A stretch of DNA of 32,697 nt, taken from a virus. The stretch spans positions 1 to 32,697 of IMG/VR virus record IMGVR_UViG_3300037189_009626; one strand, given 5' to 3'. Position numbers and translations under genes: made by a program. Each line of letters starts with the position of its first letter. Position 1 is the first letter of the stretch. The notes under the pieces are model-generated. The model was not told the origin of the DNA, ran no database searches, and saw only the letters and a list, made by a program, of their open reading frames with translations. Shown piece after piece: positions 12,646 to 14,857 of this stretch.

Positions 12646-12948
12646 TTATTTACTTTTCTTATTACAATTTCTATATATTGCGCGTTGTTTACGCATCTTT
12701 CTAGTCATAATGGACTGGTGTTCTGTATTTGCGTATCCCATAGGTGCATATATAATTCTTTCAATAACTACTCGTTCTTCTAGTTTATATTTTTTCTTGA
12801 TATTATCAAATGTTTCAATTTGTTTACTGGTCCAGTCTTTTTCCCTTTTGAATAAAGAAGTAATAAATTCTTTTTCCCAAATAGTTAATTTCTTTTTAAT
12901 GTCTGGTGTAATATACTTTTTTACCTCAATTTGATTTTTAGTTGCCAT
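12646..12948 (-). CDS. Hypothetical early protein, first gene of the minus-strand programme
   Basis: The protein has 100 residues from the ATG at 12948 (MATKNQIEVKK). A longer frame to 12999 exists, but its extra 17 codons overlap an inverted repeat and read as leader. 'LTIWEKEFITSLFKREKDWTSKQIETFDNIKKKY' matches a short motif ('L..WE..F..SL......LS.KQ...L..I..K') that occurs in small phage and primase-associated proteins. The function of that motif is not known to me. The C-terminus is very basic ('RKMRKQRAIYRNCNKKSK'). It is the first translated gene after the structured leader. Confidence 0.65.
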   Translation of the reverse strand: MATKNQIEVKKYITPDIKKKLTIWEKEFITSLFKREKDWTSKQIETFDNIKKKYKLEERVVIERIIYAPMGYANTEHQSIMTRKMRKQRAIYRNCNKKSK

Positions 12949-13152
12949 ATATTTGTTTTTATATTTGCGTAATACTGGGTATAAAGGTCGGTAATTCATT
13001 TGGAACTTCCAAACTACTGTCCTGATGTTTAATCTAACATACCAACTTTGTGGCCAAAAAACTCCTACACACTCAAGACCAATTACCGACTGCTTCGTTC
13101 GGCTGTTGGGTAAGACTTACTATTTCTTACTAGGACCCATCAGGTGGATTTT

Positions 13153-13186
13153 GTAGTGATATACCGCACTACGAGATCTTCGGTAT
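13153..13186. ncRNA. Predicted H-type pseudoknot element
   Basis: On the plus strand, GTAGTG (13153-13158) pairs with CACTAC (13167-13172), and ATACCG (13161-13166), in the loop of that stem, pairs with CGGTAT (13181-13186). Stems are 6 bp each, perfect and directly adjacent. The linking loops are 2 nt (at) and 8 nt (gagatctt), ideal sizes for an H-type pseudoknot. The complement forms the same pairs on the minus strand with the loop lengths exchanged. Which strand is transcribed is not shown by the sequence. Confidence 0.45.
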
Positions 13187-13234
13187 GAATAATATAAATA
13201 AATATCTTCATTTTACGAAATGTTCACCCAAAAT

Positions 13235-13265: not shown

Positions 13266-13285
13266 AATATAAACAAAAAAACAAT

Positions 13286-13564
13286 ATGGCTAACAAACAA
13301 GACTATGAGAACCTTCAAATGGGATTTGATAGGACTCAATTGTACAAAGAGTACACACAACCTCAAATTAACCGTTCAACTGCGTTACAAGCAACTATGA
13401 ACTGGTGTAAAGTAAACCAATATAAATTGGAATTACCTGAGATTATTGCTTTAACCAATAAATTTGTTCAATATATTGAAACAGGTGATACCTCTTGGAT
13501 GAAGAAAACTGAAAAGTATTTAAAAGAAAAGGTACAGGAAATAGACGGGATATTTATAGACTAA
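13286..13564 (+). CDS. Hypothetical protein, 92 aa, first gene of the plus-strand island
   Basis: The start is set at the ATG at 13286 (MANKQDYENLQ) because the promoter lies at 13235-13265, downstream of the earlier in-frame ATG at 13220. An A-rich stretch (aaacaaaaaaacaat) precedes the start, the usual translation signal in Bacteroidota. The body 'INRSTALQATMNWCKVNQYKLELPEIIALTNKFVQYIETGD' is mostly helical and ends in a charged helix 'WMKKTEKYLKEKVQEID'. There is no membrane segment. A strong terminator follows at once, so it is a single-gene unit. The strong host-type promoter suggests immediate-early expression. Function not recognised. Confidence 0.75.
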   Translation: MANKQDYENLQMGFDRTQLYKEYTQPQINRSTALQATMNWCKVNQYKLELPEIIALTNKFVQYIETGDTSWMKKTEKYLKEKVQEIDGIFID

Positions 13565-13583: not shown

Positions 13584-13614
13584 GGGAACCCTGGTGTTGG
13601 TTCCCTTTTTTTTT
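13584..13614 (+). terminator. Rho-independent terminator
   Basis: A perfect 7-bp stem GGGAACC (13584-13590) / GGTTCCC (13599-13605) with loop ctggtgtt is followed by nine Ts. It ends the transcript of the 92-residue gene. Confidence 0.92.
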
Positions 13615-13622
13615 GCAATTAT

Positions 13623-13653
13623 TTTGACTTTTACATTTTTTTTATTATATTTA
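13623..13653 (+). promoter_or_regulatory. Bacteroidetes-type promoter, probably for a small RNA
   Basis: TTTG at 13623-13626, 19 nt, TATATTTA at 13646-13653. This differs from TAnnTTTG only in the last base. The implied start falls at about 13658-13660, exactly at the first G of the 10-bp stem described next. No ORF follows before the terminator at 13743-13773. Confidence 0.6.
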
Positions 13654-13657
13654 TATA

Positions 13658-13773
13658 GGTGACGGGGTTCATATTTTTTTTATTATACATTTGTGCCATA
13701 TCTGTTAGTTATAATCCCGTCACCTTTATTAATATTTTCAATAAATCCCCTTCTTTTTAGTTGGGGATTTTTT
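13658..13773 (+). ncRNA. Candidate small non-coding RNA, about 115 nt
   Basis: The stretch begins with GGTGACGGG, which pairs perfectly with CCCGTCACC at 13716-13724 (10 bp if 13657 and 13725 are included). This closes a large AU-rich loop of about 49 nt with no ATG. It then ends in a terminator hairpin (AAATCCCC / GGGGATTT plus T run). It has its own promoter-like site 5 nt upstream, a terminator of the previous gene before that, and the next gene's promoter after it, so it is an independent transcription unit. A structured regulatory RNA is the simplest reading. The target is unknown. Confidence 0.6.
13743..13773 (+). terminator. Rho-independent terminator of the small RNA
   Basis: AAATCCCC (13743-13750) pairs with GGGGATTT (13763-13770) around a 12-nt loop, with a run of six Ts at 13768-13773. 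Confidence 0.88.
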
Positions 13774-13822
13774 ATTGATAATCAATCAGTTATAATTTTT
13801 TTTTAAAATATTTCAAAAAATA

Positions 13823-13854
13823 TTTGGAATATATAAAATGTCGCCGTAACTTTG
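13823..13854 (+). promoter_or_regulatory. Bacteroidetes-type promoter
   Basis: TTTG at 13823-13826, 20 nt, TAACTTTG at 13847-13854, an exact match to the consensus. The implied start near 13860 leaves a leader of about 35 nt to the ATG at 13897. It would drive the 151-residue gene and the three microprotein genes after it. Confidence 0.8.
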
Positions 13855-13896
13855 TTCTATAATCAAATGGGGGACAGCTTACTGAACATAAAAGTT

Positions 13897-14352
13897 ATGA
13901 CAACAAAAGTAAAAACAGAATTGACACCAGCACAAGTTGTAATCAACACTTACCCAACATTCACAGAAATATTTGAGTACGCACTCAAAAACATCGGTGG
14001 TGTTAAAGGTAGTATGACACACAAATTTTACACTTCATTATCTGAAGAATATCGTTGGGAGGCGGTAAGTGATTTAGTTGACCTTATGCTAGAACAACAA
14101 CAAGGTAGACCATTCCACAAAACTTATGGTATTAAAGTTAATAAGAAGACAGGGTTCTCGTCAGACAAGACAGGTAGTGCTATTGTATATGATTTTATGA
14201 AACAAGAACATACCGTTAATGGTGATGAGTATCTTGCGTTACTTAAAATTATGTCAACACATTGGATGAACTACCAAGGTTTTACTAATGAGATGAATGA
14301 CGCTTACCTTGAGTTTAAATGTGATTTAAAAATTTATAAAATATTAGATTAA
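13897..14352 (+). CDS. Hypothetical protein, 151 aa
   Basis: The start is chosen at 13897 (MTTKVKTELTPAQ), preceded by 'ataaaagtt'. ATGs at 13852 and 13867 are in frame but lie inside or almost on top of the promoter. The protein is mixed helical with no membrane segment ('FTEIFEYALKNIGGVKGSMTHKFYTSLSEEYRWEAVSDLVDLMLEQQQGR' contains its best-structured part) and has a Lys/Gly-rich middle ('KVNKKTGFSSDKTG'). No known motif was found. It heads a four-gene unit with three microproteins and ends at the terminator at 14821. Early expression from host polymerase is likely. Confidence 0.75.
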   Translation: MTTKVKTELTPAQVVINTYPTFTEIFEYALKNIGGVKGSMTHKFYTSLSEEYRWEAVSDLVDLMLEQQQGRPFHKTYGIKVNKKTGFSSDKTGSAIVYDFMKQEHTVNGDEYLALLKIMSTHWMNYQGFTNEMNDAYLEFKCDLKIYKILD

Positions 14353-14820: not shown

Positions 14821-14857
14821 AACCCCGTTCAGTTTTTTTATTCTGACGGGGTTTTTT
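14821..14857 (+). terminator. Rho-independent terminator closing the plus-strand island
   Basis: AACCCCGT (14821-14828) pairs with ACGGGGTT (14846-14853). CAG/CTG adds three more pairs across a one-base bulge, and Ts continue to 14857. On the minus strand the same hairpin lies beyond the last minus gene (stop at 14927) and may also slow polymerase there, but lacks a good T run in that direction. Confidence 0.9.

Follow-up and report, generated by a model that had tools for sequence, protein, structure and literature searches.

A hairpin small RNA family of flavobacterial-type phages predicted to pair with the start codon region of the adjacent operon

Results

The window (the whole 32.7-kb stretch of DNA analyzed here) is the record of an uncultured virus carrying a terminase, portal and tape-measure set. 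On its plus strand, at positions 13658-13773, it encodes a predicted small RNA (sRNA) of ~116 nt, delimited by promoter position, terminator and fold, with a loop that complements the start codon of a neighboring gene, so that translation of that gene is probably lowered. As judged from sequence comparisons, this hairpin RNA is a member of a previously undescribed sRNA family, of which the window holds one copy. Our reading, to which we assign a probability of roughly two in three, is that it represents a phage antisense sRNA blocking translation initiation of the neighboring operon. The reading rests on a promoter pattern, covariation of the plus-strand stem, a conserved loop core and an excess of complementarity to the phage's own operon. 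A preliminary description of this DNA had proposed that the phage encodes a regulatory RNA of ~115 nt as an independent unit, complete with promoter and terminator, a proposal that the comparative evidence strongly supports.

The closest cultured relative of the window's terminase belongs to Flavobacterium phage 11b (43% identity), a phage in which covariance model R2 found no hairpin element. For host assignment, genome contigs were searched with the P0001-type protein and the terminase, and no relatives were recovered. The sRNA unit sits between the P0001-type gene (13286-13564, +), which is the predicted target, and the next plus-strand gene (13897-14352). A terminator of the upstream gene (13584-13613, +), kept in relatives, separates the P0001-type gene from the sRNA unit; its loop is UGGUGU in most relatives and its stem is variable. 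The P0001-type gene has homologs in 78 viral loci and its product, a small four-helix protein (AF2 pLDDT 79), had no family match and no fold match. The product of W, the gene one further upstream, was modeled as a winged-helix protein with PadR, MarR and Fur as Foldseek neighbors (E about 1e-3) and corresponds to PHROG 9069, of unknown function; searches with P0001, P0002 and the winged-helix proteins gave no named function. Since W is modeled as a winged-helix protein and the P0001-type protein is without a match, the sRNA seems, as far as the sequences indicate, to control a small phage operon that is possibly regulatory.

The stretch 12941-13210 (230-270 nt), 5' of the P0001-type gene, has 82-89% identity in L030, L040 and L020; it has no Rfam match and no convincing ORF, and we regard it as another candidate for a structured RNA or a regulatory element. 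The region 13755-13870, ahead of the gene at 13897, contains TTGATAATCAATCAGTTA followed by a promoter-like pair (TTTG / TAACTTTG); it is 75-90% conserved in many relatives, and one portion has matches in Prevotella Lak phages as well. No tRNA or tmRNA was found in the window.

A Bacteroidota-type promoter (13623-13653, +) lies directly 5' of the sRNA and consists of TTTG (13623-13626), a 19-nt spacer and TATATTTA (13646-13653). This promoter, the start at G13658, the stem, the AU-rich loop and the terminator were all found where the preliminary description had placed them. The gap between the box and G13658, the first base of the stem, is 4 nt, and applying to TATATTTA the numbering of the F. 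johnsoniae -7 element (T-12 to G-5, PMC6847099) places the predicted +1 exactly at G13658. Among 36 relatives (6 of them recovered by a pattern that included the box, TTTG being part of no search pattern), the spacer between TTTG and the box is 19 nt in 15, 20 nt in two and 18 nt in one, with no other spacings, and the box-to-stem gap is mostly 4-7 nt. Such a conserved promoter directly 5' of the element (TTTG-N19-TATATTTA) is consistent with an intergenic bacterial sRNA. At its other end the predicted transcript closes with an intrinsic terminator (13743-13773, +), of which the hairpin, AAATCCCC/GGGGATTT, occupies ~13743-13770 and the following T-run reaches 13773.

The stem is formed by the arms GGTGACGGGGTT (13658-13669, +) and AATCCCGTCACC (13713-13724, +). 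It is GC-rich, as had been described, and at 12 bp is longer than the 9 bp originally noted. The arms close an AU-rich loop of 43 nt (13670-13712, +) that is predicted to be largely single-stranded. The 118-nt strand has a folding energy of -33.6 kcal/mol, compared to -16.8 +/- 3.1 kcal/mol for shuffled sequences (z -5.5; none of 200 shuffles was as good). Covariation in relatives had been suggested as a check on the RNA, with a stem lacking conservation as the result that would speak against it; the stem proved to be conserved by pairing. The proportion of paired stem alignment cells is 91.6% vs. 66.1% with partners shuffled, a percentage that is lifted by the use of a covariance-model alignment of the hairpins, which is fitted to the structure; this hardly accounts for the 79 two-sided cells. 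Two-sided changes occur in 11 of the 12 stem pairs, pairing being kept while the letters drift, and the covariation score is 0.634, vs. 0.209 for shuffled partners and 0.13-0.17 when the partner is slid. Covarying conserved secondary structure of this kind is likewise consistent with an intergenic bacterial sRNA.

It is very improbable that the inverted repeat represents no separate regulatory RNA but a DNA element or else a terminator or leader of unusual type. The T-run found behind the stem in 20 of the 36 relatives and, in one subgroup, the small ORF that begins directly after the hairpin would both fit such an element, but the outer nine stem pairs of the 36 elements include 21 G-U and two A-C, which is indicative of a plus-strand RNA as opposed to a DNA palindrome. 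In addition, the conserved promoter is directed at the base of the stem, a terminator of its own closes the preceding gene and the motifs of the loop are conserved.

The hairpin is present in ~50 IMG/VR contigs from uncultured phages of flavobacterial type, 3' of the same small-gene cluster and with one main copy per record. A search with the neighbor protein led to relatives L002 and L003, in which a stem of different letters, equally paired, occupies the same place; from the homolog of the upstream gene in L003, eight loci were reached, and from its profile the 78 viral loci. Most members of the closer P0001-type group carry the hairpin, and no convincing element was found in the more distant group (L053-L086). 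A hairpin at the same place in L066 (3249-3304; also in L067 and L069) of the distant group, with the stem GGGGGAG/CTCCCC and a U-rich loop without GCCAU, is possibly a diverged family member (model E 0.48). The covariance model, built from 7 and then 23 hairpins, picked out a single main element in each virus record, the per-genome E reaching 1e-13 at best. When the virus collection was searched by RNA pattern alone, with no use of the protein, further elements were recovered, and most of those whose upstream side was checked adjoin the same cluster, with distant P0001-type proteins. One element (L272, 5503-5568) is on virus contig 2651869531, which, judging by its name, may be an isolate genome and hence offer a possible culturable host. 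None of the Rfam 15 covariance models had a hit in the window, the best matches being below the gathering threshold (RsaE, 24.6 bits vs. 79; Yfr10, 25.3 vs. 43), which places the RNA outside the Rfam 15 families, and no conserved phage sRNA family of Bacteroidota was found in Rfam or in the literature searched.

Within the loop, the sequence UGCCAU is kept in nearly all relatives while the stem letters vary, the exceptions being AGCCAU (L002), CGCCAU (L015) and UGCCAA (L025). In the window this near-invariant core (13694-13699) is part of a predicted antisense segment, UUUGU-GCCAUAU-(C)-UGUU (13690-13706, +). A second motif, UAUUC, is present in 18 of 28 loops vs. 2.6 expected, is sometimes double and is usually located 10-20 nt 5' of UGCCAU (e.g., L035, 3307-3372); pairing to AUGGC leaves this motif unexplained. 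An RNA in which UAUUC and UGCCAU are bound by a phage or host protein, thereby titrated or guided, would account for it; however, we consider a protein-binding loop quite unlikely, as it predicts neither complementarity to gene starts nor the tracking of target changes seen in the swap and shuffle tests and in L229 (below).

The preliminary description had also suggested that the 5' arm could pair with the terminator at 14821. An 8-nt complementarity (ACGGGGTT/AACCCCGT) does exist, but the terminator's role as a target is unsupported, because ACGGGGTT is in the 5' stem arm, the stem letters vary freely and L003 has no such terminator. An AACCCCG terminator was found elsewhere only in the near-identical sister phage L002, beyond which the complementarity is not kept; the arm is closed in the stem, and ACGGGGTT also occurs at 14846, in the other arm of the 14821 terminator itself. 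This candidate was rejected. It is the loop, with UGCCAU, that forms the conserved pairing surface, and the start codon region of an upstream gene is the best supported of its targets.

UGCCAU is the reverse complement of AUGGC(A), with which one of the two genes immediately upstream begins. In the window, the predicted target site (13280-13297, +) covers the 5' UTR, the start codon and codons 2-4 of the P0001-type gene, and its duplex with the antisense segment has an energy of -13.9 kcal/mol, a value which, as for all duplex energies here, leaves loop accessibility out; for the window alone, the match of the flanks outside GCCAU falls short of significance (p 0.11). The sister phage L002 has 12 nt of perfect pairing (GCCAUAUUGUUA). 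The best case, L229 (CUAAUUGCC..GUAUAUUG), pairs over 19 bp (-24.2 kcal/mol) with the start of the winged-helix gene, and this locus came from those examined after the hypothesis and resembles L183, where the W target was first noticed. W, one gene further upstream, is the best target in other contigs (e.g., L183, L178, L030/G020 and L042/G026). Weak second matches of the hairpin-only model R2 in several records correspond to the antisense of the P0001-type gene start. AUGGC starts are found in 35 of 80 upstream genes vs. 68 of 821 genes elsewhere, a difference whose p-value cannot be read literally because the upstream genes are homologous. Coding reasons make AUGGC frequent in this gene family, so the match could in part be coincidental.

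Target prediction on phage mRNAs, as had been recommended, favored the phage's own upstream gene start, which, in a set of 778 starts from 28 contigs, came first in 13 contigs and was among the best three in 20. A duplex scan of whole contigs, not limited to gene starts, was set aside as uninformative because the U-rich loops match A-rich DNA everywhere. Swap and flank-shuffle tests were devised to remove the effect of GCCAU, with relatedness represented by 22 hand-made groups. When loops were swapped between the 22 groups, the own start was the better fit (p 0.0086 by energy, 0.0049 by rank), with p 0.61 for unrelated control starts. Shuffling the flanks only gave a Fisher value of 1.7e-4 (control 0.93) and, for nine held-out loci examined after the hypothesis had been formed, 0.0027 (control 0.08). 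These tests lend moderate support to the own-operon start as the predicted target; the seed's complementarity to the initiation region exceeds chance with moderate significance, as expected of a GibS-type sRNA.

An RNA directed mainly at host mRNAs, or at many phage mRNAs, as a general decoy or repressor of AUGGC start codons, with the neighboring operon as just one target, is unlikely. Such a role would be consistent with the 12% share of AUGGC among phage gene starts, with the good scores of other phage starts in certain contigs (the gene downstream in G018 and G025, for example) and with the retention of the core in L012, L034, L052 and L231, and also L144, where no upstream gene begins with AUGGC, but the excess flank match is specific to upstream same-strand genes (controls p 0.61 and 0.93). 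As the core is kept in those five loci, the RNA must have different targets or a different role in them, and additional targets, host ones included, are likely.

Discussion

In the antisense mechanism that we favor, a host sigma-ABfr-type promoter would start transcription at the first G of the GC-rich stem, and the stem would hold ~40 nt of AU-rich loop open as a single strand. The UGCCAU core and its flanks would pair with the AUGGC start region of the mRNA from the cluster immediately upstream, the paired gene being the P0001-type gene in the window and the winged-helix regulator gene in some relatives. The duplex would cover the start codon and the A-rich leader used by Bacteroidota ribosomes in place of a Shine-Dalgarno sequence, so that initiation should be blocked and expression of the operon lowered. 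We infer transcription of the sRNA, and likewise repression as the direction of its effect, its timing and its role in the phage cycle. Bacteroidota mRNAs are without Shine-Dalgarno sequences, and leader adenines and low structure tune their initiation (PMC6847099); GibS, an sRNA that pairs over the start region, represses in Bacteroidota (PMC7366714), and by analogy the hairpin sRNA may repress its neighboring operon as GibS does.

A broader reading, on which we place even odds, is that of a widespread, unnamed phage sRNA family whose stem-closed loop carries a hard-wired anti-start-codon core, UGCCAU against AUGGCA, and exploits the missing Shine-Dalgarno sequence. The start codon and codon 2 would form the seed target, and the flanks would re-tune to whichever gene of the operon begins with AUGGC.

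To our knowledge, few sRNAs are known in Bacteroidota. With its clear promoter, covarying structure, conserved seed and adjacent predicted target, the family offers a directly testable system, one that bears on RNA regulation without Shine-Dalgarno sequences and obvious Hfq or ProQ, and on phage control of its own regulatory genes.

The plasmid copy-number RNAs CopA, RNAI and ctRNA are stable hairpins in which a loop pairs with a neighboring mRNA, and, lying on the opposite strand, they overlap their target and are perfectly complementary to it. The window sRNA is predicted to resemble them in presenting the loop of a stable hairpin to a neighboring mRNA, and differs in being on the same strand as its target, downstream of it and non-overlapping, an arrangement that sets it apart from cis-encoded antisense RNAs of the CopA or sok type. 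Among phage RNAs, c4 and sar/sas pair with a phage transcript and thereby control the gene; c4 is processed out of the very transcript under its control, and the P22 RNAs are located opposite the gene they target. The window sRNA is alike in its predicted pairing with a phage gene and differs in that it is not transcribed across its target, its pairing is short and imperfect, and it belongs to a conserved family. Both c4 of P1/P7 and sar/sas of P22 are on record as phage antisense RNAs (listed in the review PMC12197685). GibS of Bacteroides thetaiotaomicron (PMC7366714) is similarly a Bacteroidota sRNA with a single-stranded seed that pairs around the start codon of mRNAs without Shine-Dalgarno sequences, in a phylum without obvious Hfq or ProQ. 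However, GibS is host-encoded, has its seed in an unstructured 5' end and targets distant metabolic genes, whereas the window sRNA is phage-encoded, has its seed inside a stem-closed loop and has the neighboring operon as its predicted target.
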